From assembly GCF_000746825.1 (NCBI RefSeq), contig NZ_JQIV01000003.1:1-64000 (forward strand): a DNA stretch of 64,000 bases. Reading direction: 5' to 3'. The first letter of the stretch is position 1. The number at the start of each line of letters is the position of its first letter. Both the position numbers and the translations under genes were made by a program. Origin of the DNA: Carnobacterium inhibens subsp. inhibens DSM 13024. GTDB taxonomy: Bacteria; Bacillota; Bacilli; Lactobacillales; Carnobacteriaceae. The notes under the pieces were generated by a model. That model saw only the letters and a list, made by a program, of their open reading frames with translations. It searched no databases and was not told the origin of the DNA. Below are positions 1 to 19,351 of this stretch, piece by piece.

Positions 1-1971
1 TGAACAATTTTTTTAACAAAGTAAAAAAGAAACTTGTTTGGTTTCTCGTTAGTTTTATCCTTTCGGTGTGTTGCTTGGTAGTGTTGACTCAATTGATACT
101 GACCTTATCCGAGTTTAAATTGTCTTTAACGACCACTATCTTACTCGAAACAGTAAAAGAGACACTTCTTCATCCTTTTCAAACAATCCAAACGTTAATC
201 GAAACAAACAATCCATTATTTCTAATGGGAACCATTGGTCTCTTCCTTTATTGTGCCTTTGTTCAAATCAAATTAGCGTCTAAAGAAAAGAAAGAGGGAT
301 GGGAAGCCGATGAACGAAACCAATACCATGGTTCAGCACGCTGGGCACGCGAAAAAGAAATTTTTGACGGTAAAAATTACCTGGCACAATCTAAACAAGA
401 GATACTGAAAAACTTTACCGCTTCGCTTGATCAACCAACTGAAGGGGAGGGAAACAAATGACAGGAACCATTTTAGGTATTTTAAATAATAAGGTCATTA
501 TTCAACCCACTGAATCGAAACCCAATCGAAATATAATGGATGGGAGGACCAGGGTCTTTTAAAACCCAAAGTTTTGTGATTACAAATGTCTATAATGAAA
601 CGGAAAATAGCATCGTTGTGACGGATCCAAAAGGAGAAGTTTATGAGCAAACAGCTGCCGTTAAACAGCAGCAAGGATACGACGTCCGGGTCTTGAATTT
701 TTCAAATATGTTGGCCTCTGACCGACACAACCCTATTGATTACGTTAAAAAGATATTCATGCCACCACAGTGGCGACTAAAATTGTGGACAGTGCTAACA
801 AAGACAGTAAAAGAGACGTTTGGTATTACTCACAACGAGCACTGTTAAAGGCTCTTATTTTGTTCGTAAAGTATGAATTGCCTCCTGAAAGACGAAATAT
901 GGAGGGCATCTTAGACTTTTTACAAGAGTTCGACCCTGAATCAGATGAGGATGGCGAAAGTGGCTTAGATGAAGAGTTTTTAAAACTTGAACGCAAGCAC
1001 CCAGCTAGACGAGCGTATGAATTAGGCTATAAAAAAGCCAAAGGAGACATGCAAGGAAGTATCATTATGTCCCTTCTAACAACAATATCCGACTTTGTGG
1101 ATGATGAAGTCGCCGAATTCACACGATTTAGCGATTTTAATTTACGAGACATTGGACGCAAAAAGATGGTGCTTTACGTGATTATTCCGGTGATGGATCA
1201 ATCATGGGAAGGGCTAATCAATATCTTTTTTAGCCAGTTATTTAACGAACTCTATGATTTTGCGTCTGAGAACCACTCAAAATTGCCGAAATCAGTGAAC
1301 TTTATTTTAGATGAATTTGTAAACTTAGGTAAGTTTCCAGGATATGAAGAATTTTTAGCTACTTGTCGAGGGTATGGAATTGGAGTGGCCACTATTATTC
1401 AAACTTTGACGCAATTGCAGGATAAATATGGCGATAAAAAAGCGGAAAGTATTTTAGGAAACTGTGCCGTGAAAACGTGCTTAAACGCTGCGAATTCGAC
1501 TACTGCAGAGTACTTTAAACGCTTATTGGATAAAGCTACCGTAAAGGTTGAAACCGAGTCTGAGAGCACACAACATGGTAAAGAGAACAATTCTAGCAGT
1601 TCCAGCGAAAATCAAAGCTACACGGGAAGAGATTTAATGACGGCTGGTGAAATTATGCAAATGGCAGATGATACGAGTTTAATTGTCTTTCAGAACAAAC
1701 GCCCCATTCAAGCGAAAAAAGCTTTTCAATTCGAGTTGTTTCCGCAACCCAAATTCTTATTGAATCAAAGTGACTACACACACATTCTACAGCTGAACAA
1801 CTAGAAAAATTCGAACAAGATAAAGAAAACTATCAAGCCTACATGAAAACAGACGCTGAGAATCGAACCGAACGAGAAAAGGAACAGTCTGAAGAACGTG
1901 AAAAAGCAAAAGAGCAAAAAGAACAAGAAATAATAACTGAAGCGGCCGGATTTTTTAAGTCAATGAACTAA
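1..1971 (+). pseudogene. VirD4/TraG-type coupling ATPase, frameshifted
   Basis: The type IV coupling protein brings the relaxase-DNA complex to the conjugation channel. Reading is open from base 3, so the start codon probably lies at the window edge. The first part has two membrane segments and an HGSARWA motif typical of the N-terminus of VirD4 proteins. A P-loop (GGPGSFKT, with F where G is usual) is at about 542-565 and a Walker B-like ILDEFVNLG at about 1306-1332; the tail is charged and rich in E, K and Q. Coding continuity needs frame changes near 455, 538, 750 (in an A5 run) and 1785. Only some of these are in homopolymers, so decay is as likely as sequence error. The reassembled length suits the family. 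Confidence 0.8.
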
Positions 1972-1987
1972 GGAAGGTAGTGACAAA

Positions 1988-2487
1988 ATGATTAAAGGAA
2001 CGAAAGGGTTAATGTTATTGAGTGTTTCATTCTTTTTATCCGGATGCGGATTTAACGAAGAAGAAGCAATAGAAAAGAGCACAAACCAGCTAGAAATTTT
2101 TTTGACGCTACACGAAGAGCGAGAACGTTTTTCGGACTTAGATAATGATGATTTACAAGCTCGTTTAGAAGAGGATGTTTTTCCTTATTTAACAGAAAGC
2201 TACCAAGAAAAAATTACTGAAGAGATTGAAGAATATGAATTTAATACAGATTCTGTATTTAGTAAAAATTTGTTTTTTTAAGAGAAAGTGAAGAAAGTTA
2301 TGATAATGGTGTTTTTTGGCAAGAATTTAGCATTGAGGAAAGTAACGTAAATCCTGAATTGGAGACAGTAAATCACAGTGCTTCAATTGAAAGTATTTCT
2401 ACAATTACACCAAGTTTGGTAGAGATTGAAATGAATATAGAAGATGGAGAGTGGAAACTGAATTCTGTTGAAGAAGGTGAGTGGTAA
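1988..2487 (+). pseudogene. transfer-locus lipoprotein, frameshifted
   Basis: A lipoprotein signal with lipobox LSGC is at residues 17-20, followed by an acidic domain. The frame stops at 2281, but the -1 frame continues without interruption to 2487, ending 2 bp before the next gene. The break is in a T7 run at 2273-2279. About 166 residues if repaired. I do not recognise the family. Its place between the VirD4-like and VirB6-like genes suggests a surface component of the conjugation apparatus. Confidence 0.6.
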
Positions 2488-2489
2488 AT

Positions 2490-3347
2490 ATGGGAGAAAG
2501 GATTTCCAAAATGTTTTCAGACTGGATTACAGATTTGCTAGAAACAACCTTTAACCTTTTAGGAAAGCTTATTTTTGATCACAATGCACTGAGTGGTTTT
2601 TTCTCTCAATTGTATGGAATATTCATAGCATTTGGTGGTGTTATGCTAGTTACCATCGCTTTAGCTAAAGTATTGATTTTTTTATTATCTGAAGCGGAAG
2701 GCAGTCGAGACGCTTCTGTATGGGGATTGATTGTCGATTCCTTTAAGGCTAGTGCAATGGTACTAATTCTACCGTTAATTTTAATTTTTTCGCTCGATAT
2801 GATTGTCTATCCATTAGGAGAATGGATGTTTAGTTCAATTGGTGGTATGACTGCAGAAAAAATCAATTCTTTTATTAACATAGAAGACGTCTCGCAAGTC
2901 GCTCCTAATGTTATTAGTACTCTTATCTTACTATTATTCGTACTTATTGTATTTGCGACCTTCTTAATCAAAATCTGTATCTATCATGCGGATCTTGTCT
3001 TGTTGGAGTTATTGAGTGTATGGGCAGCGATATCTATTATTAATGAGGAATACAATTATATGTCTGTATGGTGGCGCGAATTTCTAAGCCAAATTGTGAG
3101 TATTATTGTCCAAATGGGCTTAATGGTAGGGATTGTAGAAGTATTATCTAGTACAACCTTCGAATGGTACAGTTTTATGTTGCTAATTGGTTTTGGCGTA
3201 CTGATTATTCGTGGGCCAAGTGTTTTAAGAAGCATGTGGTATGGAACAGGGTCTGGTAAAGCCACTATGCAAGGTGGAAAAGTGGCTACTAGAATATATA
3301 TGATGCGAGCAAGAAGTGTTACCAGTGCGGTTTCAGCAACAAAATAA
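2490..3347 (+). CDS. VirB6/TrbL-like conjugation membrane protein
   Basis: About 286 residues with roughly six hydrophobic helices and a basic C-terminus containing GSGKATMQGGKVATRIYMMRA. This layout is typical of the polytopic VirB6/TrbL proteins of Gram-positive type IV secretion systems, which form part of the inner channel. An in-frame GTG lies at 2481, but the ATG at 2490 is better placed after the GAAGGTGAG ribosome-binding sequence. The 3' end has a degenerate second copy at 14712-14815. Assigned by topology and context; motif evidence is weak. Confidence 0.65.
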   Translation: MGERISKMFSDWITDLLETTFNLLGKLIFDHNALSGFFSQLYGIFIAFGGVMLVTIALAKVLIFLLSEAEGSRDASVWGLIVDSFKASAMVLILPLILIFSLDMIVYPLGEWMFSSIGGMTAEKINSFINIEDVSQVAPNVISTLILLLFVLIVFATFLIKICIYHADLVLLELLSVWAAISIINEEYNYMSVWWREFLSQIVSIIVQMGLMVGIVEVLSSTTFEWYSFMLLIGFGVLIIRGPSVLRSMWYGTGSGKATMQGGKVATRIYMMRARSVTSAVSATK

Positions 3348-3421
3348 ATAATTAAAGGAACAGAAATATATAATAATAAATTAAAAGTTAATTTTTCAGA
3401 TAGTAAATAGATCATAAAAAA

Positions 3422-3456
3422 ACGTATCTCCATAAAAATATTGGAGATACATTTTT
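3422..3456 (+). terminator. rho-independent terminator
   Basis: The stem GTATCTCC / GGAGATAC is followed by a T-rich tract. It closes the transfer segment before the lanthipeptide-like locus. Confidence 0.7.
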
Positions 3457-3693
3457 CTACATTTCTGGAATCAAAAATAATCGATTCTAAGACCATTTCA
3501 ACTTTAAAACAGGATAATTATCCACGAAATAAACTCAAATGTCATATTATTTCACTAACATTTGATATTGCTACTAACATAACTTCACGGTAATTAAAGT
3601 ATATAAATTATACTATTAATTTATTGGACACAAAGATAGCCAATCTATATTCATTATATTAAGTAATCTAACACTAACTATAAAAATGAAATT

Positions 3694-3783
3694 TTAGCTA
3701 ATTATAATTGGGCAATAAGCTGTGACAATTACTTTTCCATATGGTTCGGCTTTTAACTCTTGTAATTTTTGTAAGTTACTCAT
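3694..3783 (-). CDS. candidate class III lanthipeptide precursor (29 aa)
   Basis: A 29-codon ORF with a strong ribosome-binding site (GAGGAGAT, 9 nt before ATG). The N-terminal half contains LQKLQELKAEP, resembling the amphipathic LxLQ-type leader motif recognised by class III LanKC enzymes. The C-terminal half, GKVIVTAYCPIIIS, holds one Thr-x-x-Cys spacing able to form a methyllanthionine and a terminal Ser. It lies 66 bp after the Rgg gene on the same strand and faces away from the LanKC gene. The core is unusually short, so a signalling peptide for the Rgg regulator is an alternative. No other ORF in the locus looks more like a precursor. Confidence 0.5.
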   Translation of the reverse strand: MSNLQKLQELKAEPYGKVIVTAYCPIIIS

Positions 3784-3849
3784 ATTATTTTATCTCCTCT
3801 CATTTTTAATTGAATACAAAAAAAGTATATATTAAAAAAAAGAGATTAT

Positions 3850-4706
3850 TTAATTTGTTTCATTTTTGAAATCTTCAAAAATTTTACTATATGCAATAAA
3901 AAGATTATCTGAATCCAAAATTTTTAAAATATTTAGAAGGTTTAAGTTTTTTTCTTCGTTAATTTTTACTGGATCTCTTACATAGTCGTACAATGCTTTC
4001 GCGTATTCTTTTAAGAATCTCTCACCTAATTGGATATCTAAAAATTCATTGGAAGATAACGTTCTTATAAAGTAATCTACTTGAGTATAATTTTTTGCCT
4101 CTAAATTTAAAATCACTGTGTTAAATAATAAATTAATAATAATACTTAAATTTATTTTTTATATAATGTTGTTTTATAAGAAATTTCTTTTGTCAATAAA
4201 TTTATAGATTCTAAGGGAATAGAAGTCATTGTATTACCATACAGAATTAATTCATATCTAGTCCAATTAGAAACCTTAAAAAGGTAATCTATCAGAAAGG
4301 CCAAGCTATCTGTATCTAATTTTTTATCTTCTATCTGTAATCTCATGGCTTTGATCATGATGTAATTCAATTTTGCATATATCGAAGAATTTTCTGTATG
4401 AAATTTCCAAACATCTGATTCTATTAAATTAGCTTGATTTAGATTTCCAGAAATTAAAGCCTGAGTCATCTTGAGGAGATAAATATTTTCTGGGGAAGTA
4501 GATATATCTTTATATAATAAATTAAATTCACTGAATGTTATATGTAACTTATCTAAAAGTTTTAAAAATTTTGTAGCAGAAATATCAGAAAGGCCACGCT
4601 CTACTTTTGAGAGTTGACTTTTAGATAAAATACCACTAGCCAAATTTTCTAAAGATAGATCTTTATCTTCTCTTAAACTAAAAATAATAGTTCCAATGTT
4701 TTCCAT
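3850..4706 (-). pseudogene. Rgg/RRNPP-type transcriptional regulator, frameshifted
   Basis: Residues 5-60 form an XRE-type helix-turn-helix with the Rgg hallmark ILSKSQLSKVERGLSDIS. The rest is the all-helical peptide-binding repeat region. The first frame stops at 4152 after LYKK; the next frame continues immediately (INLSIIINLLF...) to 3850. The break is at a T6 run, 4155-4160. Repaired length is about 284 residues, normal for Rgg. Rgg proteins bind short peptides and control adjacent peptide operons. Divergent from the LanKC gene, with CGGAGG before its ATG. Either a homopolymer error or inactivation. Confidence 0.8.
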
Positions 4707-4791
4707 AAATATTCCTCCGTTTCTTATATGAAACTTATTTCTTTTTTACTATTATATATGATTAAATTATCATTAGAAAGAAGGGTTTTAT

Positions 4792-6794
4792 ATGGAAAGC
4801 ATTTTTAACTACTATATTACTTCTAAATCTGAAAAATTACCTGAACAAGGATGGAAAATTCATATTTCAGCGTATTATGATAACTACCATAACATTTTAA
4901 AAAAAATCGCAACTTATTGTTATAGTTATGAAATTCCTTTTAAATACACACAAAAAAAGCATCTACAAATGTTTTTAGGCAAAAATGCTAATAGAATTAG
5001 CTCAGGGAAATTAATTACTATTTATCCCAGCACGGAAATAGAATTTATAAAAATAGTAAGGGATTTATATAGCAAACTGAAAAAAGAAAAAGGTCCTAGA
5101 ATATTAACAGATATTAGATATAAGGATTGTAAAGTTATTTATTATAGATATGGCACTATTTCTAGAAAAGAAAGAGTAATAATTTCACCAAATAATGAAA
5201 TTACTGCAGATGCAAACAAAGTAGGATATCTAAAACCTAATTTTATTGAAGATCCTCTAGAGAAGTATCAAAGTAATGAAGTAATAAGTAGTTACTTATT
5301 AGACAATTATGAAATAGAAAAAAGTATTCAATTTTCAAATTATGGAGGTGTATATGAAGCTGTTAATAAAAATAGTTTAGAAAAAGTTATAATCAAAGAG
5401 TTTAGATATAAAACAGGTGAATCAACTACTTTCCAAAGTGTTGATTTAGCGGAAAATGAAACTAAAAATTTATTATTTCTGAAAGGAAAAAATTATGTGC
5501 CTCAATTAATTGAGACAATTGTTGAAGAAGATAACTTTTATTTAATTAGGTCATATATACAAGGAAAAAGTTTATCTAATTTAAAAGAAGAGCTGACATT
5601 GGCAGTAATCCCTATAGAAAATAAAAAAGAGATACATAACAGGAAAAAAAATTATATAGTCTTGTAGATAAATTATTCATTAAGTTTGTAGAAATGCATG
5701 ATTTAGGCTTTTATCATAATGATATATCTCTGAATAATTTCTTAATAGACGATAATTCAAATATATTTTTCATAGATACAGACTCTTCTTTTTTAAGTAC
5801 TGGGAATTTAAAGTATGTTGTAAGTACAACATACTTTACAGATTCTACTCTTTTAAAAGAACAAACTGGCATTACAATAGATAAAAAAAGGCTAGGGTAC
5901 TTGATTATCGATTTGACTTGCAGCGCTAACGACTTGTTAGTAATCGATCCTACGGGCCAACAAACAAAGCATTTATTCCTTAAATTTTGTTATCTATATA
6001 ATTTTATAGAACTATATAGTTTTGTTTCAGAATTGCTTTCTTGGAAAGAACTCCAAATAGAAGAAGGTGCTCATATAATTAAAAGTTTGAGGGATGAGAT
6101 TAATTTTATTAATAACTACATGAATTGTTCAAGTAACATTACTACAAGTGTAAAAAAATATAAACCAGAAAATATTAATAAAATTTTTCGAAATATTGAA
6201 AATAATTTGAAAGGTGACTTACCTAAATTATCTGAGTCAGATTTAAATTATATACAAGCACACCTAACTACATTTAACAGTGAAAAAAAATATAGAAAAT
6301 CATTTCACTTACTTTTAGAAAAAATGTATATCAAAGTACTAGAATCTGAAAAAAAACTATTTTTAAATGACCAAAATAATCTTTCGCCCTATGTAAATTG
6401 CACAGCAGGTTTAATACAAGTTACTATAAAATACTTAGATTATTATTATGATGAAAAAATTGCTTTGTTTTGTAAAGAACTTATAGAAAGTATCGATATG
6501 ACTTTTGTTAGAAATCCTTCATATAAATATGGATTATCAGGAATTGCTGACACATTTTTATTAGCATACTCTTTCTATAATGAGGATATTTATTTAAAAA
6601 AAGCAGTTTCTAAATATACTATTATAAGAGAATTTAAAAATGTATCTACTAATGGTTGGTTATACCCTGATTACCATTTGAAAAGTGATGATGGTAACTT
6701 TAATACAGGCATTGAAGGAATCCTTTATTTTTATAAGCAACTTTACAATATATTAGAAAAGAAAGTAGCTGATAAAAATGTACAATTATATTAG
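4792..6794 (+). pseudogene. class III lanthionine synthetase LanKC-like, frameshifted
   Basis: The N-terminal lyase-type domain has GWKIHISA (20-27) and GPRILTDIRYKD...YYRYG (101-121), hallmarks of LanKC enzymes. A kinase-like domain follows: glycine loop NYGGVYEA, VIIKEFR lysine, then HNDISLNNFLI as catalytic loop and FIDTDSS as metal-binding motif. The C-terminal LanC-like region is short, about 110 residues with GLSGIAD and TGIEGILYF and no obvious zinc ligands. The two halves are separated by one base at an A8 run (5644-5651); the shifted frame reads KKLYSLVDKLFIKFVEMHDLGFYHND without a gap. At about 668 residues it is shorter than usual (about 850). Overlaps the exporter by 17 bp. Confidence 0.8.
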
Positions 6795-8361
6795 TAAACA
6801 TAAACAATTAAACATATTAATTTTTATAATCACAATTAGTACTTCTTTAGGACAAGTATTAGGTTCGATGTCTTTATCTCCTATATTAAACAATTTAGTA
6901 AATCGAAATATTCAAGGAATCGTTAAATGGAGCTTTATTAGCTTACTTATCTGGATAGCAACATTGTTATTAGGTTATATCAGTTCTGTATTAGAAGAAC
7001 ATACTATAAAGTTAATGAGCAATGATATTAGAACAGATTTTGCAAAAAATATCAGTCGAATGTCTATCACTGACTATGAAAAAAATGATAAAAGCCATTA
7101 TGTCTCTTGGATGAATAATGACGTGCAAATTATTCAAGACAATGGATTTAGAAGTCTCTATAATTTAACAGGAAATATGACAACAATCATTTTCGCTATA
7201 GGATCTTTAATCTACTATCATTATAGTTTAGCCATTGTCGCCCTTATTTTTAGTTTGTTTTTGGTAGTTTTGCCAAAGGGATTTAGTACGATAATGGAAA
7301 AACAAACCTTGCGTATAAAAAGTACAAATAGTACGTTTTTAGAGAAAATTGATGATATTTTAGGTGGCTTTTCAGTTTTTTCCTATCACAATTGCTTAAC
7401 TATTATGACTCAAAAAGTGAATGATGAATCAGAGATTTTGGGTACTCAAAAAGTTAATTATATCAAAACGATTGGTGCTTTGAATACCTTGATTTCTTTT
7501 GTTAGTGTACTTTCACAAATTTTCATGATGTTTTTTACAGCTACTCTAGCCTATTTAGGGGTTATTACAATCGGAGTAATTACTACCTCTGGAAATTTAT
7601 CTGGTCTTATTTTTACTAATCTCTCTCAAGTATCGACTAATTTATTTTCCATAAAATCTGTTAAGCCAATATTAAAACAAAATTTAACTACATCTCGTTT
7701 AAAGAAAGGAAACCAAACACAAAAAATAGACCATTTTACAGATACTATCAGACTAGAAAATGTTTCCTTTAGTTACGGAAATAAACCCGTATTAAGGAAC
7801 GTAAGTTACATTTTTGAAAAAGGAAAAAAGTATGCGATAATCGGAGATAGTGGTTCAGGAAAATCTACACTTTTGAAAATATTATTAAAAAGATTAAACC
7901 CAGACACGGGAACTGTTTATATTGATCAAAAAAATTACACAGAGCTATCTGAATCTAGTATCACAAATTTAATGGAATATGTTGAACAACGACCATATCT
8001 TTTTAATGAGACTATTAAAAATAATATATCTTTAAATACAAAAACTACGAATGAACATCTCTTGCCTATTTTAACTAAACTAGGAATTCATGATTTTGCC
8101 AAACTATCCGATAAAATTATAGGACACGGAAATAATTTTTCGGGAGGTCAACGTCAGAGAATAGCTTTAGCGAGAGCATTAAACTTTAGTAAAAATATAA
8201 TCTTTTTAGATGAAGTCACATCTGGATTAGACAAACAAAGCTCCCAAGAAATTGAAACCATTTTATTATCCAATCCAAGTGTCACTGTTGTCATGATTAC
8301 TCATCACCTAAGTGATGAAACAAAAAATAAACTAGACGGAATATTGGAGGTTGGAATATGA
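6778..8361 (+). CDS. ABC exporter (fused membrane and ATPase domains)
   Basis: A 527-residue half-transporter: about five to six membrane helices in residues 1-300, then an ATP-binding domain with Walker A GDSGSGKST, signature FSGGQRQRIALARAL, Walker B IIFLDEVTSGLD and switch MITHH. No N-terminal C39 peptidase, so leader removal would need another protease. It starts inside the LanKC gene, so the two are co-translated; the likely role is export of the modified peptide (LanT-like). Intact despite the frameshifts around it. Confidence 0.85.
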   Translation: MYNYISKHKQLNILIFIITISTSLGQVLGSMSLSPILNNLVNRNIQGIVKWSFISLLIWIATLLLGYISSVLEEHTIKLMSNDIRTDFAKNISRMSITDYEKNDKSHYVSWMNNDVQIIQDNGFRSLYNLTGNMTTIIFAIGSLIYYHYSLAIVALIFSLFLVVLPKGFSTIMEKQTLRIKSTNSTFLEKIDDILGGFSVFSYHNCLTIMTQKVNDESEILGTQKVNYIKTIGALNTLISFVSVLSQIFMMFFTATLAYLGVITIGVITTSGNLSGLIFTNLSQVSTNLFSIKSVKPILKQNLTTSRLKKGNQTQKIDHFTDTIRLENVSFSYGNKPVLRNVSYIFEKGKKYAIIGDSGSGKSTLLKILLKRLNPDTGTVYIDQKNYTELSESSITNLMEYVEQRPYLFNETIKNNISLNTKTTNEHLLPILTKLGIHDFAKLSDKIIGHGNNFSGGQRQRIALARALNFSKNIIFLDEVTSGLDKQSSQEIETILLSNPSVTVVMITHHLSDETKNKLDGILEVGI

Positions 8362-8498
8362 TTGATTTTTATAAATACAAAATAATTGATCTAAGTGATA
8401 AAAAAGAAGACAATGAAGAAGAAAATAAGGATGAAAAGTTTACTAAAAAAGATATATATGCTTGTATTAACTATTTACAAAAACGCTGGAGAAAATAA
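8358..8498 (+). CDS. small charged protein after the exporter
   Basis: A 46-residue ORF whose ATG overlaps the exporter stop (ATGA), so it is translationally coupled. Very acidic middle (KKEDNEEENKDEKF) and basic end (YLQKRWRK), one Cys, few Ser/Thr. Not recognised. Could be an accessory or immunity peptide; it lacks the composition expected of a lanthipeptide core. Confidence 0.5.
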   Translation: MIDFYKYKIIDLSDKKEDNEEENKDEKFTKKDIYACINYLQKRWRK

Positions 8499-8547
8499 TT
8501 TAATAGCTCAAAAAAAGATACTTAGATATGAGTTCTTAACAAAATAA

Positions 8548-9664: not shown

Positions 9665-12439
9665 ATGAGAAATCCTAGGAATAAATTAAAAGTTTTCATC
9701 AGCTCGAAGACTGGGGAAACACTTACTGATCAAAAATATATGCTAGCTCGTATTGCTGTAAAAGAGACATTAGAATCAACAGGTCTGTTTGAGGTGTATT
9801 CTTTTGAATCTGAAGGACCATCGGTAAATTCCGCACTGGACCATTACACTGGAGGCCTAGAAGATAGTGATGTATGTATATTTCTGATTGATAATAAAGA
9901 TGGCGTGCCTCCAGGTGTACAAAATGAAATTGATATTGTAAATAAGTACCAGATTCCTTCGCTCTATTATTTTTGTCAAGGTGACGAAAAAGAAAAAACG
10001 CAAACACAGATTGAATTACTTAGAGCAACGCAACCCAAGCATGCAAATATTAACTCTTTTAGTGAATTTATTGAGAAGTGTGCAATACATTTAGTAGACG
10101 ATGTATTACTAACATATAAACGTATGGTTAAATCCAAGAGTGGACAGGATGATATATCTGAAACAAGTAAATCTTTTGACGGAAAATCAGAGATTTTGAA
10201 TACGAACTCTGGAGCAGTTGAATCAAGTAATAATTTTATTTTTAGTAAAGAAAAATTGATTAATGAGTCATGTCGAAATTTCTTTGGAAATTTCATTTTT
10301 GGTAATGAAATTAAACAATTTGACAAGAAAGACTTTGATTTTTATTGTTCAAAATACTTGTTGACTATGTTTGGACAAGCAACTATTGAAGAATTTAATA
10401 TGAGTCTTTTTCTGGAATCTTTAGGTAAAATTCTGCCACAACCTTATTATGAAGTAGTCGAGAAAAGATGGATCTCAAATCAGAAGTATTATTTGGAAGA
10501 GTATGATGAATCGCTAACACTTTTACAAGAAGCATTAGCGCTTGCTGAGTCTTACAACGGAACGGTTGCGGAATGGGTTGTTCAAGACATTCTAATAGAT
10601 TTGAGAAATAGAGAAATTAATATAGCGGAAACAAAAAATGAATACTTTCGAGAGACAACAGGTCAAAAGGGAATGAATAGTCGCCGCGAAAAGCTATATT
10701 ACCCATTAATTGATCGAAATGAGAAAAACTTACTTGAATGGATTGAAAAAGAAAGGCAAAAAAATGAGATGAGAAGCTATTCTAGCTGGAGTTCTTACGG
10801 TGACATCTCATTTTTAAGTGATTATATAGCTGATATATATTATCAAGCCATGATGTTTGGTTCTCTTACCCACTTAAATAGAATATATACTTTAATTCAG
10901 AGGCTAACGTACCAATTGAGCAAATTTACAGATTACTGGCCATGGGTAATGACACTTTTAAGTACCACAATAGTTACACTGGATCGTAAAAAAACAACTC
11001 AGATAACACACCATTTTGATAAACTGCTTGAAAAAATGAACCCGGAAGATGCCAGAAAAGTTTATCAATTCTCAAACAACGCTAAACCAAGTCATAATAA
11101 ATTTAGTGCAAATCTTATTGCGATGTCTGAAATTGGTTACTACTTAAACGACGATGATTTTGAACAATATTGGAATATTCTCAAATTGGAAATTGATTCA
11201 TGGGTTAAAGATGAAAATAGTATGGTATCTTTACAAGCTTATATTTTTCAGTGTTTAAAAAATATAAGTAATCGTGTTGATGATAACTATATATTGGAAT
11301 TTGGTTTAAATCTTCTAGAATCACCTAAGAGACGTTATTACCTTGATGTTCTGAAGTTATTATCCGGGAATTACACTGATTATAAATTAGTTAGTGTTGA
11401 CAATTCCAACAGAACAGTTGATACCCTTATTAAGTATTCACAAGAAAGTATTGATTTCAATGAACTTAAAAGTGTCCAAACTATTTTTTTGCTATTGAAA
11501 AATATAGATAATGAAAGTCAAAAAGAAATGGAAACATTTATTCAAAATAAGTGGCCTGAATTCTATTCTAATGAATATAGGCTTGAAAAAAATAAATATA
11601 TAGAATCTGGAAATATTCTTATTAAATTGAAAACTGAAGACATACACAATAGAAATCTCACTCAAGGGAAAAATGGTATCTATGCTGGATACGGAACAAA
11701 TCCGTATCATGAAGCGAAGAATATACTGACTATGTTGGATGAAAAACCAGAAGAAAACATGCTTGGTGAATTGTTTATAGCAACATCAGCTACGATTCTT
11801 TCTAGTAATCAATTTGTAGAAGACAAACTGAGTGCTTATCACCTCATGATTTTCTTATTGAGGTATGACATATCTCTTATAGAAAGAGAAAAAGAAGTGG
11901 TTACTCGACTCATTCAATTTCAAGATTATGAGATTGCAAGCGAATCAATGATGAGTTATGTTGACAGTACAATGCTGATATTAAGCCATTTGTTGTTGTT
12001 GGAATGCTTAGGAAAGAACCAGTTTGCTGAGATTGCTAAAATCCTATTAGTATTCACTAACCCAGGAAATCAAGTGGAGGCTTGTAAGATGCTTCAAACC
12101 TTCCTTTATAATTATCAAAATTACAAAATTAGAACAAGTTTAGAAAGTTTATTAATGCAATGTACACTTTTATGGACCAACTCAGATAATCTTAATGTTA
12201 GATGGAACAACACTCATTTACAACTTAAACTGATAGAAAAGAAGAAATATAGAAAAATAATCGGTCAAAATCTTCAGAGCATTATGGAGTCAGACAACGC
12301 AATCGTTAAAAGTCAGATTGTTCATAAAATAGATTTAATTAATAGTTTAGATAAAAAACTAGGTCAAACTATCTTTGAAAGTGCAAAGAATGATAATAAC
12401 TTCGTGATCCGGAAAATAGTTGATATTAAAAATATATAA
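9665..12439 (+). CDS. DUF4062 (TIR-like) protein with long helical C-terminus, candidate defence gene
   Basis: 924 residues. Residues 8-130 fit the DUF4062/TIR-like fold: KVFISSKTGETLTDQKYMLARIAVKETLE, EGPSVNSALDHYTGGLEDSDVCIFLID and PGVQNEID. The remaining ~750 residues are helix-rich without a P-loop and look like TPR/HEAT-like solenoid repeats (YDESLTLLQEALALAES at about 280-297 is TPR-like). Such architecture, a TIR-family effector on a repeat sensor, is common in bacterial immune proteins, but here no NTPase module is visible. Own ribosome-binding site (GAAGGAGA) and no operon partner. Neighbouring ApeA-like and helicase genes support a defence role; this is inference. Confidence 0.6.
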   Translation: MRNPRNKLKVFISSKTGETLTDQKYMLARIAVKETLESTGLFEVYSFESEGPSVNSALDHYTGGLEDSDVCIFLIDNKDGVPPGVQNEIDIVNKYQIPSLYYFCQGDEKEKTQTQIELLRATQPKHANINSFSEFIEKCAIHLVDDVLLTYKRMVKSKSGQDDISETSKSFDGKSEILNTNSGAVESSNNFIFSKEKLINESCRNFFGNFIFGNEIKQFDKKDFDFYCSKYLLTMFGQATIEEFNMSLFLESLGKILPQPYYEVVEKRWISNQKYYLEEYDESLTLLQEALALAESYNGTVAEWVVQDILIDLRNREINIAETKNEYFRETTGQKGMNSRREKLYYPLIDRNEKNLLEWIEKERQKNEMRSYSSWSSYGDISFLSDYIADIYYQAMMFGSLTHLNRIYTLIQRLTYQLSKFTDYWPWVMTLLSTTIVTLDRKKTTQITHHFDKLLEKMNPEDARKVYQFSNNAKPSHNKFSANLIAMSEIGYYLNDDDFEQYWNILKLEIDSWVKDENSMVSLQAYIFQCLKNISNRVDDNYILEFGLNLLESPKRRYYLDVLKLLSGNYTDYKLVSVDNSNRTVDTLIKYSQESIDFNELKSVQTIFLLLKNIDNESQKEMETFIQNKWPEFYSNEYRLEKNKYIESGNILIKLKTEDIHNRNLTQGKNGIYAGYGTNPYHEAKNILTMLDEKPEENMLGELFIATSATILSSNQFVEDKLSAYHLMIFLLRYDISLIEREKEVVTRLIQFQDYEIASESMMSYVDSTMLILSHLLLLECLGKNQFAEIAKILLVFTNPGNQVEACKMLQTFLYNYQNYKIRTSLESLLMQCTLLWTNSDNLNVRWNNTHLQLKLIEKKKYRKIIGQNLQSIMESDNAIVKSQIVHKIDLINSLDKKLGQTIFESAKNDNNFVIRKIVDIKNI

Positions 12440-13075
12440 TTTTATTTACCTAGTAAAAGTAAATTTTACGGGAGTATCATCTTATTTCAACGAAGTTATA
12501 CCTCACCTATAATCATCTGTTGGTATTTAAGTGGTTTGCTCCCTACCTACATCTCTATTTTTTGAAATTTAGGTATGGGGTAAAAGCACGTTCTATATTT
12601 CATACTTGTTCCATATTCTGTTTTTTACCATCTTTGGCTTTATTATAACTCTCAACCATAGTCAATACTTAAGAGTAATAAATATGGGTTTCAGCTGCAG
12701 TAAAATCAAAGAGTACGTGGTGTCATAACTCATAGTCAATAAAAAAGGATGAACACTATGAAATATGGATATACGGGTGAATAGTAATCACTAACTAAAT
12801 TATTAACCTCTTCATTTAAAAGTCAGACCTTAAATTTAACTGTTTCTTTTTTATTTTAATGTAGATTTAGGGTGTACCCATAATAGTCACGAGAAGAGAC
12901 CGTATTTATTAGCTTTTTGAATGTAGATTGTAATTGTCTATTAAACATATAAAGAACAATCTTCGATTTTTACATAAGAAAGATAGATTAGTCGTTGTGT
13001 TGATAAAACTTTAGGTCTTGATTATGATAAAATTATCTACACTTTACCATTAGTTAAATCGAAAGGAGATTTAAT
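12440..13075. other. intergenic region with a resolvase start remnant
   Basis: No intact gene. At 12758-12784 a ribosome-binding site and ATG open a frame MKYGYTGE-stop that matches only the first residues of serine resolvases (MKYGYxRVST). This suggests the stub of a deleted recombinase. The promoter and ribosome-binding site (AAAGGAGA) of the next gene lie at the right end. Confidence 0.4.
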
Positions 13076-14497
13076 TTGAAATTAACAGATAGATTGTTAA
13101 CAGATGAATTTATTATTGGAGGAGTTTGGTCCGATAACGCCGATTTTAAAGATTCTTTACCAGGAAATTTGACTTATAGCTATTCTAACAACCAACTTTA
13201 TGTAGAATTTATAGATACTGATTTTAATGTTGGAGAGGTATGGGGAACTTTTTATGGTTTGGTAAATAGAACGGAAATTGTAACCTTAACCAATGTCCGT
13301 GTTTCACACACGAAAGGGGGTAGTGTGCAGTATACAAAGATAGTTGCAGATAGTATGATTATTGACTCGAAACCTATAACAGATGTAGATAGTTTTTTTC
13401 ATAGAGAAATTAGTTTTACATATAATAATTTAAAAGATTGGTCTTGGGTAAATCCATGGAATTCTGATGACCTTAATAAAAGTTACTACTATGAAGAACC
13501 TGCTTTAAAAAAATATAAATTAGAATCAATTGGTGGACTATTAGAAGAAAAGGTAGCGCCAATAGAAAAATTAAAAGGTATTTGTGTGCAAGAGATTAAT
13601 TTATCATATACCCCCTACTATAAAATTACACTAAATCAGGATAAAACGATTAAAGAACTCCATGAATTAATTTATAGAATTAGCCTATTATTCAACTTAT
13701 TTTTGGGTAAAAAAATTAATATTCAATTTTTAGATTTTCCTTCTGAAATAGAGGATATATCAGGAAATAAAATTAGAAGTAGTGGGAGGTTTTATACACT
13801 ACAACAGAAAGAAAGAAGCAGTTCTTATCAACCATATCCTCCATATTCATATGATATTATTGCTGATGCATTAGGAAAATATCTAAATATATTCTTATTA
13901 AATTTTGAAAAAATAAAAGTAATTATTCAAAATTTTTCCGTAACTTTTACAGGTGGTAACTATGTTGAAAATTCCTTTTTAGATGCTTCTCTTAATTTAG
14001 AAGTATTACATAGAGAATTTTTTAGTGGAAAAAAAGAAGTAAATGACGAATTAATTGAAGCAAAAGAGTTAATAAAAAGTGCATTGAAGCAAATCAGAGG
14101 TGAATTAAAGGAAAAAATTCTATCCAATTTAAATAACTTAGATGACACTACTCTTAGAAAAAAAACACTTGAACTGTTGAGAGATATGCCAGATGATTTA
14201 CTTAATAAGTTGAATTTAGAAGGATACAATTTTAATAATAGTAAGGGAAAAAAAGATTTTGCAATAATGTGCTCAAATACTAGAAACTTTATTACTCATG
14301 GAAGCTCAAATGATCAACTAAAGATTTTCTCTTCAGTTGATCTAATTAAAGTAGCAAAAATTCTTAATATAGTATCAGAATATCATGTTATGAAAATAAT
14401 CGGTTTAGAAGACAAAGATATTATCGAGGCAATTTCTCATAAAAACTACTACCAAAAAGTTTTAACTAATCTATATGAATTTCAGGACTTAAATTAA
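13076..14497 (+). CDS. ApeA-like HEPN abortive-infection protein
   Basis: 473 residues starting at TTG after AAAGGAGA. The N-terminal ~200 residues (FIIGGVW, NLTYSYSNNQLYVEF, VWGTFYGLVNRTEIVTLTNV) resemble the ApeA N-terminal domain. The C-terminal half is helical and has the HEPN nuclease signature R-x4-H at R403-H408 (RNFITH) followed by G. HEPN proteins of this type cleave RNA on phage infection and stop growth. Monocistronic. Adjacent to the DUF4062 protein and a helicase. Confidence 0.7.
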   Translation: MKLTDRLLTDEFIIGGVWSDNADFKDSLPGNLTYSYSNNQLYVEFIDTDFNVGEVWGTFYGLVNRTEIVTLTNVRVSHTKGGSVQYTKIVADSMIIDSKPITDVDSFFHREISFTYNNLKDWSWVNPWNSDDLNKSYYYEEPALKKYKLESIGGLLEEKVAPIEKLKGICVQEINLSYTPYYKITLNQDKTIKELHELIYRISLLFNLFLGKKINIQFLDFPSEIEDISGNKIRSSGRFYTLQQKERSSSYQPYPPYSYDIIADALGKYLNIFLLNFEKIKVIIQNFSVTFTGGNYVENSFLDASLNLEVLHREFFSGKKEVNDELIEAKELIKSALKQIRGELKEKILSNLNNLDDTTLRKKTLELLRDMPDDLLNKLNLEGYNFNNSKGKKDFAIMCSNTRNFITHGSSNDQLKIFSSVDLIKVAKILNIVSEYHVMKIIGLEDKDIIEAISHKNYYQKVLTNLYEFQDLN

Positions 14498-14711
14498 TTA
14501 TGTTCTTCCTATCAATAGATAAGAGAAATCATAGTTTTAATCCGTTAAGCAAGGTATTCTAACTTAGTTTAAATAATAGAACTTTAAAGTCGTAATCGAC
14601 TCCTAATTTCCTTAATCTTTGATATTTACAGCGAAAACAGAGTCATAACTTAAGGTTAATGACTATAATTTTATGAAAAACTAAAATTGTGTAAAGATGA
14701 GAATCCAGTGT

Positions 14712-14815
14712 ATTAAGAAGTATGTGGTATAGAACAGGATCTAGTAAAACAGCTATGCAAGGTGGACAACTGGTAATATAATACACCTGATGTGAGCTAG
14801 GAGTATGACAAATAA
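14712..14815 (+). pseudogene. degenerate copy of the VirB6-like gene 3' end
   Basis: The bases encode RSMWYRTGSSKTAMQGGQLV and then stop. They align with the C-terminal part of the VirB6-like gene at about 3225-3330 (SMWYGTGSGKATMQGGKVA), including the following ATGATGCGAGC-like stretch. A leftover from a duplication or recombination that placed transfer DNA on both sides of the lanthipeptide and defence genes. Confidence 0.75.
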
Positions 14816-14826
14816 AGCTTCAACAT

Positions 14827-14872
14827 AAAAATCTATACAACAATCAATAATGGTTGTTGTATAGATTTTTTG
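14827..14872. terminator. terminator hairpin
   Basis: AAAATCTATACAACA / TGTTGTATAGATTTTTT with a 13-nt loop, directly after the VirB6 remnant. The rest of 14498-15007 shows no gene. Confidence 0.75.
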
Positions 14873-15007
14873 CTTACTCCTATTTCATATTAAATTGGAT
14901 AATAATATAAAGACACGCAGAGATATTTTCGTTTAGAACTCAGTGTGTCTCTTGCCTAACAATTTATTAAAGGCACCTTAGCAGTTAAAGAATATTGAGA
15001 GTCAAAC

Positions 15008-15706
15008 TTATAGAGACGGACTGTTTTCATTAGTCTCTAATGTACAACCGGCATAGTAGTATTTAACATCCTCTAGATAAAGAAAAATTTGCTTTTTATT
15101 TGAATAAGTTGATGTTCTGATTATAGGCATAACCATGATAAGTAGTGCTATTACAGTAATCATAATAATCAATAATGATACAATAAAGAGGAATAAATCT
15201 TTCTCATATAGAATTTCATTTTGTTGAGAGAAAAATAGGTTTAAAAGGAAGCCTGCAGGAACCCAAAATAAAAAGAAAAAAACTTTTGATATAAAATTAA
15301 AAGAAGTAAGAATAGCATTTTTTTCTTCAATTAAATTTTTTTCAATTTGATTTTGTAGCATTTCTATATCTTCTTTGTGTTTAAATCCTTGTTTTTCTAA
15401 TAATTGTTTAAAAAGAATAAGTTCATTATGAGGGGTAATCAAATTTCTTTCTAATTTATTAGTTTTATAATATAGAAATGATAAACAAATTATTACTAAA
15501 AGAGGAACCCCCCAGCTAAAATTGCCTAATTTCTTGTCAAGGATTATTAATACAAACACTATTATTACTGACAGTTCCATAAGGATAAAAGTAATAGAAA
15601 CTAATTTATTATTTTTTATAAAATAAGTAAACTTATTTAATGTTAATTTGTTACTTTGAAAAGTTTGTTTAGCAATTTTTTCAACTAAGTAGTAATAATT
15701 AATAAT
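15008..15706 (-). CDS. four-helix membrane protein, unknown; possible ATT start
   Basis: The first in-frame ATG is at 15580, within a continuous open frame and without a ribosome-binding site. A clear GGAGG (complement of 15715-15719) sits 8 nt before an in-frame ATT at 15706, giving about 232 residues beginning INYYYLVEKIAKQTF. Four hydrophobic segments in two pairs are separated by a charged helix (LLEKQGFKHKEDIEMLQNQIEK). Not recognised. An ATT start, or an ATG lost by mutation or sequencing error, are both possible. Confidence 0.55.
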   Translation of the reverse strand: MINYYYLVEKIAKQTFQSNKLTLNKFTYFIKNNKLVSITFILMELSVIIVFVLIILDKKLGNFSWGVPLLVIICLSFLYYKTNKLERNLITPHNELILFKQLLEKQGFKHKEDIEMLQNQIEKNLIEEKNAILTSFNFISKVFFFLFWVPAGFLLNLFFSQQNEILYEKDLFLFIVSLLIIMITVIALLIMVMPIIRTSTYSNKKQIFLYLEDVKYYYAGCTLETNENSPSL

Positions 15707-15961
15707 ACTTAAAACCTCCGTTTAACTTAAGATAATTAATAACTATATAGATGCGATAAGATTAACTGATATGTAAATAAGCAGTATACAATCTGAGTAA
15801 TAACCATATATTTCTTATTAAAGTAAGTATAATGCGATAATAATTTTATTGGTAATAACGTTGCTTTATTTAATAATTAAATAGGGGATTCAATTTTTTG
15901 TGTGACTAAATTGTTCCTTTTTTAAAGGAATGAAATTTTCGTCTATAAAAAAAACGATATA

Positions 15962-15995
15962 TTCAGCGTTTAAAATTCTTTCTTTAAACGCTGAA
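15962..15995. terminator. hairpin, possible terminator of the helicase gene
   Basis: TTCAGCGTTTAAA / TTTAAACGCTGAA stem with an AT-rich loop, in the space downstream of the helicase gene. 15721-16095 is otherwise empty. Confidence 0.45.
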
Positions 15996-16095
15996 CTTCT
16001 ACTGGTAGTACTTTTGACATGTTAGACATTGACTGTTGAGTATGGTACTGACGTATATTTTTTCAATAAAATTGTCATATAATGAATTGTTGTAT

Positions 16096-18411
16096 CTATT
16101 CTATGATTTTACTCTTTTTTATTTTTACAGATGCAGCTATAGTGGGTATAATTCTGTTGAAATTATTTCTTTGTCTATCTGATGAATAAGGAAAAGAGTT
16201 TCTAACTAAGTCTAAAGGTAATTCTTTTCGATAGCAGAAATTAATAGCAATTTGGTAAATATCTTTTGGATATTTGATTCTTGAATATGAAATACGAGGA
16301 TTGGGATTATTATTCTTTATTTTGTTTTCTTGTACGAAGTTTCTTAACCATCCAATCAAATCTGAATTATCCTTGTTTGAATTACTAAGCGTATTTAATT
16401 TGTTTTTTTCAAAATTTGTTTTACTTTCTTCTGAAAAATTATTTGTAGCTCTTGATAGTGAAAATGAAGGAATATTTAAATCAGAACGTTTATATTCCAT
16501 ATGCTCTATTTGAACACCATTAGAAGTGGACTCTCTCATAAAATCAAATATATCATCTAAATATGGTGTTAACTTATAATTACGTTCTTCAAAAAAATGA
16601 AGAGTATCGGAGTTTCCCCATATTCGTGAATCAAATATTGTAAGTATTCCATAGTCGTTCCTGCTTCTAATTAGTCTACCTAGGCCCTGCTCCAATTTTT
16701 TAAACATCATTGGCCTTATGAAAGTATTAAAAACATCCTTCTCATCACATCCTGAAGATATAAGGTTTATATAGGGATCTGTAGGAACAGGGTAGGGAAG
16801 TTTAGTTAGTATTACTTTATCTAATGAGCGCCCTTCAACAGAAAATCCAGAAAAAAAACTACCAGATCCCACTAGAATACTACTTTCGTCTTTCTTAAAT
16901 TTATCGCTAATGAGTGAGACACTACTTTCTCCCTGGGTGTAGACCATATTGTTGTTTATTGGATTTTTTTTGAGATTATTAGATATAGTCGCTACATGTT
17001 CATTAGATGTGCATAAAATAAGAGCCCCACCAGATGATAAATTAAGTAGTTCAGGTAGACAGTCTTCTAGTTCCGCTAAATGGTTTTTAGCGTCTTTGCT
17101 GGGATGTGGAAAAATTTTTGGTACATATACGAGTGTCTGCTTTTTTAAATTAAAAGCACTAGAGTACTTTTTATATATATATTGATTCTCGTTTAAACCC
17201 CAATTAATTTTGAACTCATTCGTATGCTCTCCAGAGGTCAAGGTACCAGACATAAATATAATTTTATTAAATTGTGATACGTTTGTTATGAATTTTTTAA
17301 ATTCCTTATTGAAATGATTTGATACATAATGTAGTTCAATATTACCATCAAACTGTAACCAGGAAGTATTTTTTTCGTTATCAATAAAAGCTATTAAATG
17401 ATTTAAAATGATTTCTAATTCATCATGAGTATTTGAAGAATTAGAAAATCGTTTAGACATAATCATTTGAGCTATATTTGATTCAATAATACTTTTAATA
17501 GATTTTACGATTTCCAAAATATCATCAGATACTTGGTATCTCATACTACTTTCAAAATTTGAATTGACATATTTTATCTTTTCATTTTTTAACTTATTTA
17601 CAAGCGCATTATATTTAGTAGAGTCTCTTTTTAATTTTATTTTTTTAAGTTTGCTATACGTAAGAGATTGTTCAAGTCGTCCTAAAAAATTTTCTTTTAA
17701 ACTATGAGCTTCATCAAAAACTATTATACCAGGATTGCTAGGTATAATTTCTTTATATCCATATTTAAGATTGAGATACGTTTGTATTTGCTGATCATGA
17801 TTTGTAATAGTTAATTTGTTTCTATTGTCTTTATACTTATATCTGTGTTCATGACTAGGACAACTTCCAAAGCACTTTCCACTTAAGTTACTCATTAATA
17901 AATATTTTTTTATTTTATATCTATTAAACCCTGGGTACATTTTTTCTAATTCTGAAACATATCCGTATAAACAATTATCAAAGTAATTATTTAACTGTTC
18001 TATTTCAGATTCTAAAAATTTATCCCTATAATTTAGATAAGCTGCTCTACAAATATAATTTGATTTTCCTAGAGCGAGTATTTTTTCATTAGGTTTTATT
18101 AGTTCTAACTTTTCAAGAGTAACTGAATCTGAATCAAATATTTGATTTTGAAGGTTTATTGTGGAAGTAGCATAGGTTATGGAATTTTGTTGATTTGTTG
18201 AGTATAATATTGAAGGGACTAAAGTTCCTAGAGATTTCCCAGTGCCTACGGGAGCTTCTAAAAACAATATGTTTTTAGAAGAATTATATAAGAATTCGGT
18301 AATATCAAGACTCATTTGTACTTGAGATGATCTTATAGATGTTTTCTTATTAAAAAGCAAAGGTATTTTATCTTCAAATATAGCTAGATTTTTCTCGATT
18401 TCTTTATTCAA
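16096..18411 (-). CDS. DinG/XPD-like superfamily 2 helicase
   Basis: 771 residues. Q-motif-like RSSQVQM (28-33), Walker A EAPVGTGKS (52-60), DEAH box FDEAHSLKENF at about residue 235, MSGTLTSGE in the middle, and motif VI QGLGRLIRS near 570. Cysteines in YICRAAY, NCLYGY and GKCFGSCPSHE fit the four ligands of the XPD/DinG iron-sulphur cluster. These enzymes unwind DNA 5'-3'. No exonuclease domain. Monocistronic on the minus strand beside the HEPN and DUF4062 genes. It could act in defence or plasmid maintenance; the sequence does not decide. Confidence 0.8.
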   Translation of the reverse strand: MNKEIEKNLAIFEDKIPLLFNKKTSIRSSQVQMSLDITEFLYNSSKNILFLEAPVGTGKSLGTLVPSILYSTNQQNSITYATSTINLQNQIFDSDSVTLEKLELIKPNEKILALGKSNYICRAAYLNYRDKFLESEIEQLNNYFDNCLYGYVSELEKMYPGFNRYKIKKYLLMSNLSGKCFGSCPSHEHRYKYKDNRNKLTITNHDQQIQTYLNLKYGYKEIIPSNPGIIVFDEAHSLKENFLGRLEQSLTYSKLKKIKLKRDSTKYNALVNKLKNEKIKYVNSNFESSMRYQVSDDILEIVKSIKSIIESNIAQMIMSKRFSNSSNTHDELEIILNHLIAFIDNEKNTSWLQFDGNIELHYVSNHFNKEFKKFITNVSQFNKIIFMSGTLTSGEHTNEFKINWGLNENQYIYKKYSSAFNLKKQTLVYVPKIFPHPSKDAKNHLAELEDCLPELLNLSSGGALILCTSNEHVATISNNLKKNPINNNMVYTQGESSVSLISDKFKKDESSILVGSGSFFSGFSVEGRSLDKVILTKLPYPVPTDPYINLISSGCDEKDVFNTFIRPMMFKKLEQGLGRLIRSRNDYGILTIFDSRIWGNSDTLHFFEERNYKLTPYLDDIFDFMRESTSNGVQIEHMEYKRSDLNIPSFSLSRATNNFSEESKTNFEKNKLNTLSNSNKDNSDLIGWLRNFVQENKIKNNNPNPRISYSRIKYPKDIYQIAINFCYRKELPLDLVRNSFPYSSDRQRNNFNRIIPTIAASVKIKKSKIIE

Positions 18412-18865
18412 GTAACCATCCTTACTATTAAGTTATATAAATATTATAACACAATATATAGCGTGTCGTTTGATTTTGTTGCACATCATATAGATGCTTT
18501 AACGTGATTAGTTTAAATGAATCACTATAACTTGAATACCAATCTTAATAAAAAATAATAAATAAAGGAACTATATAAGGTTATTGAAAGAGATGTGAAA
18601 TACTTTTATGTGTCCTCAGAGATCAATAATGTCAGTTACCTACTTTAATTTGTCGGTTAGATGTTATTAAATAAATACTAATAGTTGAAATTATAAAAAA
18701 GAATACAGTCGTTTTCGCCTTGTCTCCTAGATGACTTGGTTTATGAATCAGCGTGTAACGAGTATACTAACTGACAACCTCCTACGGTTTTTCCTATAGA
18801 TTAAAAATATCATCGTTTACCTTACGGGTAGAATTTAGTTTGATTATTTCTTATGTGATAAAAGC
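18412..18865. other. intergenic, nothing recognised
   Basis: AT-rich, with stops in all frames and no repeat I can identify, apart from the promoter region of the helicase gene at the left end. Confidence 0.5.
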
Positions 18866-18900
18866 AAAAAAAGACGGAAAATTAACTCCGTCTTTTTTTT
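18866..18900. terminator. terminator
   Basis: AAAAAAGACGGA / TCCGTCTTTTTTTT hairpin, downstream of the following minus-strand gene. Confidence 0.8.
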
Positions 18901-18922
18901 ATGTTCAGCTAAATATTATTAT

Positions 18923-19351
18923 CTATATGCTTTGTATACTATTGAAAACATTTTCTAAATTAGTTAGGTTGCCATCCTTCCAAGCATATAATGATTGAAG
19001 GTAAAATGTTTCATTTTCGAAATCAACATGATTTAAAACTTCAATCATTGAATCAATGATTGAAACGGTTTTTTGTATTTCTACTTTATTGGTATTTTCT
19101 TGTGTTGTATTCAATGTAGTGGCTAATCCGTAGAAAGCTTCAATGTAATCTTCCTCATAAAGAAACCCTGCGCTATCTGGAACTGATGAATATGGGCTTA
19201 CAGAAGCTTCCGACAACGCTGTAACAATTCTAAGGTCTTCCGGTTTTTCGTTGGCTTGTGCATTGTTTTTTTCAGATGTTCTAGTAAACCCAAATAAACC
19301 CCCAACAATTAAAAGTACAACTCCTAGTGAAATCATTATCTTTTTAGTCAT
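18923..19351 (-). CDS. small membrane-anchored or secreted protein, unknown
   Basis: 142 residues with an N-terminal hydrophobic anchor or signal (KKIMISLGVVLLIVGGLFGF) and an acidic, helical extracellular part with no Cys. Resembles short uncharacterised exported proteins of Firmicutes. Function not recognised. Confidence 0.6.
   Translation of the reverse strand: MTKKIMISLGVVLLIVGGLFGFTRTSEKNNAQANEKPEDLRIVTALSEASVSPYSSVPDSAGFLYEEDYIEAFYGLATTLNTTQENTNKVEIQKTVSIIDSMIEVLNHVDFENETFYLQSLYAWKDGNLTNLENVFNSIQSI

Follow-up and report, generated by a model that had tools for sequence, protein, structure and literature searches.

We analyzed a stretch of 64,000 nucleotides from Carnobacterium inhibens subsp. 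inhibens DSM 13024 (the window), which is contig C3 of the assembly. Positions 3694-8498 hold rgg and then a 29-codon ORF on the minus strand, and lanKC, an ABC exporter gene and a 46-aa ORF on the plus strand. The features are:

3694..3783, minus strand: precursor peptide of 29 aa, MSNLQKLQELKAEPYGKVIVTAYCPIIIS; identical in plasmid pWNCR47, with [T/S]xxC kept across 25-27 related loci
3850..4706, minus strand: rgg, broken in the window; Rgg_C and HTH_3 domains; 285 aa and intact in contig C4 and pWNCR47
3857..3872: GTTTCATTTTTGAAAT, one mismatch to the palindromic pattern and also a putative operator; at the rgg end, 73 bp ahead of the precursor start
4719..4734: GTTTCTTATATGAAAC, a palindrome and putative Rgg operator in the rgg-lanKC gap; 57 bp upstream of lanKC and 12 bp upstream of the rgg start
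4792..6794, plus strand: lanKC-like gene (lyase, kinase, shortened cyclase), broken in the window; RamC_N, Pkinase and weak LANC_like matches; 667 aa and intact in C4 and pWNCR47
6778..8361, plus strand: ABC exporter of 527 aa with ABC_membrane and ABC_tran domains; its start overlaps the lanKC end
8358..8498, plus strand: 46-aa ORF overlapping the exporter end; annotated in pWNCR47

These domain matches confirmed the preliminary description, in which a LanKC-like enzyme, an exporter and an Rgg regulator surround a small peptide ORF. Rgg_C and HTH_3 were found in the two window fragments of rgg (4152-4706 and 3850-4116, minus strand), the larger of which was also over the cut-off of TIGR01716, and ORFs 4792-5667 and 5694-6794 matched RamC_N (E 8.6e-40), a protein kinase domain and, weakly, LANC_like. 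Exporters 32-35% identical to that of the window adjoin related lanKC genes in S. cuniculipharyngis and E. gallinarum and lie nearby in P. globulus. No protease ORF was found within the locus, in agreement with the earlier statement that a dedicated protease is absent. In the other loci compared, no homologue of the 46-aa ORF was found, which rules it out as a second conserved precursor; it is possibly an immunity or accessory protein, or spurious. Farther along the window, a 924-aa ORF starting MRNPRNKLKVFISSKTGE (9665-12439, plus strand) had no Pfam match and is perhaps a TIR-like or DUF4062-like defence protein.

The best plasmid match of the window is C. inhibens pWNCR47, 99.6% identical over the locus, in which Rgg and LanKC are intact and the peptide is letter-identical. 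Within the assembly, contig C4 ends in 8533 bp (10504-19036) that equal window positions 1-8525 with eight one-base gaps and 0 substitutions, and the genes for Rgg, LanKC and a conjugation ATPase are all open in C4. Frameshifts in the window affect rgg and lanKC as well as the genes for a VirD4-like ATPase and a lipoprotein; rgg and lanKC are each broken by the loss of a single base, in a run of T near 4155-4160 and a run of A near 5643-5651, respectively. Because the C4 and pWNCR47 copies are intact, the rgg and lanKC frameshifts are artefacts, and the window frameshifts are assembly errors at an error-prone contig end that overlaps C4, not true decay. The two assembly copies are not a duplication either, since the end of C4 equals the opening of C3 with one-base gaps only. 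In pWNCR47, an inserted IS21 element (L006 4360-6589) separates the conjugation genes from the gene for the peptide, immediately downstream of the latter.

The intact Carnobacterium enzyme matched RamC_N (E 2.3e-38) and Pkinase (43.7 bits vs a cut-off of 31.7). Its LANC_like match was weak (15.2 bits, below the 23.2 cut-off), whereas the P. globulus and pMRC01 homologues scored above this cut-off. The best NCBIfam match was lanthi_synth_III (NF038151), with 281 bits against an equivalog cut-off of 575, and the class IV model reached 190 bits. Six short homologues scanned gave 229-356 bits, all below 575 and all preferring class III over class IV. By mutation, K65, H67, K94, K117, D152 and R163 of ThurKC are needed for dehydration (PMC10604976). 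They correspond to K22, H24, K51, K73, D107 and R119 of the Carnobacterium enzyme when counted by hand along the alignment, and they are invariant in our alignment A2, as are the kinase residues K202, D311, N316 and D329; R191 of ThurKC is replaced by N or Q in the short enzymes. The cyclase region spans about 217-240 aa in the short enzymes vs 372 aa in ThurKC (domain limits from PMC10604976), such that about a third of the usual cyclase length is missing, and within the residual cyclase the motifs SPY..G.AG and G..G are nearly invariant. The S. suis homologue (648 aa) has about 217 aa after the kinase, and its structure model (pLDDT 80.5) aligned along its length with CuvL (Z 29.5) and ThurKC (Z 23); the match list of this model was dominated by kinases and therefore says little on the cyclase alone. 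The model of the window's own C-terminal half was weaker (pLDDT 68), and the cyclase was shortened in the models. The shortening, already noted in the preliminary description, is a property of the whole short-LanKC group and not of a damaged gene.

We searched 395 Lactobacillales genomes, 284 Streptococcus species and a named genome collection for relatives of this enzyme. Short LanKC relatives are roughly 600-800 aa long, and complete ones scored at least 684 bits vs at most 403 bits for general LanKCs. They occurred in about 23 of the 284 Streptococcus species and on plasmids of Lactococcus, among them pMRC01, and no relative was found in phages. We compared 27 short-LanKC loci from Streptococcus, Lactococcus (including pMRC01), Enterococcus, Paucisalibacillus and Carnobacterium. 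A neighboring Rgg was present at 25 of them, mostly no more than 3 kb away, and most also have a transporter gene, ABC or MFS, beside lanKC, so that the arrangement of Rgg beside LanKC with small ORFs is recurrent and syntenic. The group is not confined to plasmids of Lactobacillales, the setting named in the preliminary description: it is also chromosomal in streptococci and is present in Paucisalibacillus (Bacillaceae). In a lyase-kinase tree, 20 of the 21 short enzymes grouped in one clade with four other lactobacillal-type LanKCs (UFBoot 96); strict monophyly of the short enzymes is unsupported, as those four are nested among them and the E. gallinarum enzyme falls outside. Some loci hold further genes. 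In P. globulus (L067 1473-4690), two identical TWKC precursors have beyond them another Rgg and an ABC exporter that shares 35% identity with that of the window. Cys-containing ORFs of 44-62 aa, possibly for an accessory protein, lie directly upstream of streptococcal lanKC (L186 4286-4420, L047 6115-6303 and L046 4764-4937).

The 29-codon ORF has a Shine-Dalgarno sequence, AGAGGAG, before its ATG, and, as described earlier, encodes an LxxLQELK-type leader, here LQKLQELK, and a TAYC end (T21-A22-Y23-C24) with a single Cys. Besides T21, which is the sole Ser/Thr between leader and Cys, the only other Ser/Thr residues are S2 and S29, and therefore at most one thioether can form, as the preliminary description had concluded. 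A Cys and a dehydratable Ser/Thr are thus encoded beside the enzyme gene, as in class III systems, and the peptide has one T before its single Cys (T-x-x-C) instead of the S-x2-S-x(2-5)-C core typical of labionin/class III peptides. We predict a methyllanthionine between T21 and C24, forming a four-residue ring.

We looked at the related loci for a different conserved precursor, or for a lack of conservation of the 29-aa ORF, and found neither: [T/S]xxC peptides were present there. A blind search for small ORFs recovered a 27-32-aa ORF with [T/S]-x-x-C near the C-terminal end at 25 of the 27 loci, where Markov resampling of intergenic DNA gave a chance expectation of 0.16 on average; kinship among the species inflates this count, and the enrichment is not circular because the loci had been selected on LanKC similarity, not on the peptide. 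Small ORFs farther from lanKC carried the motif in none of 24 cases (near vs far, Fisher p = 2.6e-9), and the two loci missed by the search carry TFKC and TRKC slightly farther from the end. Aligned on the motif, all 26 precursors have Cys exactly three positions after Thr (20 sequences) or Ser (6 sequences), and an LQ-L leader helix is frequent. The precursors end in ..NITIGCPIIS in S. intermedius, ..TITIYCPSK in S. cuniculipharyngis (two copies), ..IVITFMCPVTGS in Lactococcus pMRC01, ..PIFTWKCPDVPEK in P. globulus (two copies) and ..IFTFKCQISLKVPATK in E. gallinarum. Eight precursor pairs, two of them near-duplicates, gave pooled values of pS 0.32 and pN 0.08 (pN/pS about 0.24), and the two P. 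globulus copies differ by 4 silent and 0 replacement changes. Judged from these substitution patterns, the precursor peptides are under purifying selection. Among individual precursors, the TFMC precursor of pMRC01 (L147 4334-4432, plus strand; also L146) has no annotation and is flanked by Rgg and by a LanKC-like protein labelled 'hypothetical protein', with an MFS transporter also present, and two loci (L123 5686-5781 and L186 4119-4214) encode precursors with SPGC, similar to nisin ring B, and a second C-terminal Cys.

Upstream of lanKC lies the palindrome GTTTC-N6-GAAAC, which also precedes the precursor gene with one mismatch. Genome-wide there are four exact matches to GTTTCWN4WGAAAC, two of which are the lanKC-rgg site in the two overlapping contigs. 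The P. globulus locus, with a LanKC 34% identical, has only two such boxes in 14 kb, at the same two relative places, and the box before its precursor genes is letter-identical over 16 bases to GTTTCTTATATGAAAC. This is good comparative evidence for GTTTC-N6-GAAAC as a candidate operator common to the Carnobacterium and P. globulus loci. A role as operator of the whole group was rejected: the box was not found in the streptococcal loci, where other palindromes such as GAATATATTC are present. A peptide pheromone may control the locus, as the preliminary description supposed, but a short-hydrophobic-peptide (SHP) gene was found near rgg at only 3 of the 24 rgg loci scanned (streptococcal), and none was found near rgg in the window or pWNCR47. 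The ORF at 4728-4808 was ruled out as an SHP gene, being without a Shine-Dalgarno sequence and situated in the promoter. The three SHP-like peptides beside Rgg of LanKC loci (L188 6232-6309, ..EIIIIFPFLTNR; L189 3561-3641, ..EWVIIIPFLTNR; L198 3135-3197, ..YIIVGGV) are candidate pheromones.

We consider it likely that these genes form a minimal class III-type lanthipeptide pathway under Rgg control, with a single four-residue methyllanthionine ring in the precursor. Rgg, probably together with a pheromone peptide, would act at the GTTTC-N6-GAAAC boxes before lanKC-abc and the precursor gene, and LanKC would recognize the 29-aa precursor via its short leader helix. The kinase domain would phosphorylate T21, the RamC-like lyase domain would remove the phosphate to give dehydrobutyrine, and the C24 thiol would add to it to close one methyllanthionine ring, Thr-Ala-Tyr-Cys. 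The ABC protein may export the peptide and a protease encoded elsewhere may trim the leader, presumably yielding a hydrophobic peptide of roughly 10-15 residues, which would most likely be a narrow-spectrum antimicrobial or an intercellular signal.

With its cyclase about a third short and the LANC_like match below cut-off, the enzyme might only dehydrate Thr to give a linear dehydrobutyrine peptide, or the ring might close non-enzymatically beside a degenerate cyclase. We regard this as rather unlikely, as a linear dehydrated product would not need the Cys that is kept in register in every aligned precursor, and the residual cyclase keeps its nearly invariant motifs. It is quite improbable that the locus is a decaying remnant without a product: the broken genes of the window and the IS21 element next to the peptide in pWNCR47 would fit decay, but the overlapping contig and pWNCR47 are free of frameshifts, the peptide is intact in all copies, and the gene set is held under purifying selection in other species.

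The 29-aa ORF could also encode the precursor of an SHP-like Rgg pheromone and not a LanKC substrate. It directly adjoins rgg, has an I/V-rich end as SHPs do, and no other SHP-like gene lies beside the Carnobacterium rgg. However, the conserved positions of the peptides are Thr and Cys, not hydrophobic residues, and similar peptides accompany LanKC at loci where no Rgg was found nearby (EWTGIC in L. gasseri, FSYKC in L. kefiranofaciens, and S. suis-like loci), so the TxxC peptides are probably LanKC substrates. At three Rgg-linked loci (L188, L189 and L198), an SHP-like gene exists in addition to the TxxC peptide, which likewise favors the peptide as substrate, and we consider the pheromone reading very unlikely. 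Combining both roles, the ring-closed modified peptide might itself be the ligand of the neighboring Rgg in an autoinduced system, and an intracellular RRNPP pheromone would then be a lanthipeptide. This would explain the absence of an SHP gene at most loci, including that of Carnobacterium; we consider it an unlikely, speculative extension of the lanthipeptide pathway.

Mutacins depend on class I or II enzymes, not on LanKC. Like the pathway proposed here, their clusters lie beside an Rgg-family regulator, but the products are larger and have multiple rings, and the pheromone MutS is known there, whereas none was found in the Carnobacterium locus. Control of mutacins by a MutR/Rgg-family regulator is on record, as cited in two articles (Wyllie and Jensen 2025, cited in PMC12445099; Qi 1999, cited in PMC8092268). 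Because such control is known, only the combination of LanKC with Rgg looks new. We found no prior description of LanKC/Rgg one-ring loci in the open literature, most subscription journals being outside the search. The SHP/Rgg-controlled RaS-RiPPs streptide and tryglysin (PMC8092268, PMC12445099) resemble the locus in their very short precursors beside Rgg and in a compact operon that pairs a single modifying enzyme with a transporter. They differ in having radical SAM chemistry and an SHP gene, where the locus has kinase, lyase and cyclase domains.

The enzyme shares with class III synthetases (ThurKC, 8sao/8sap; PneKC, 8w7j; SalKC, 9ugq; CurKC kinase domain, 7wj6) an N-terminal RamC-type pThr/pSer lyase, a central Ser/Thr kinase and, here in shortened form, a C-terminal LanC-like domain, with lyase and kinase catalytic residues kept and a leader with an LQ-containing helix. 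Those synthetases have about 865-875 aa, in contrast to the 600-800 aa with shortened cyclase here, and their precursors are longer, with S-x2-S-x(2-5)-C or several Ser/Cys, in contrast to 27-36 aa with one TxxC. The pneumococcal family III_3 is likewise a class III lanthipeptide of a Lactobacillales species, but has an Sx2Sx3C core and a prolyl oligopeptidase in its cluster and is not defined by Rgg (PMC7268733). Walker et al. 2020 (PMC7268733) left ORFs of fewer than 30 aa out of their survey, and many members, including the 29-aa Carnobacterium precursor, could for this reason not enter it.

Overall, our analysis suggests that a group of very small lanthipeptide pathways has been overlooked, each made up of one enzyme, an exporter, a regulator and a precursor close to the minimum size for lanthipeptides. 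The same set with Thr-x-x-Cys recurs in many streptococci and their relatives, mostly unannotated. Standard mining misses the group: the enzymes fall under the NCBIfam cut-off, the weaker ones miss the Pfam LANC threshold as well, and ORFs this short were dropped from the largest lanthipeptide survey. If confirmed, the pathway would provide a simple single-ring substrate for studying how a LanKC with a reduced cyclase chooses and closes a ring, and would be an Rgg-linked counterpart to the RaS-RiPPs.
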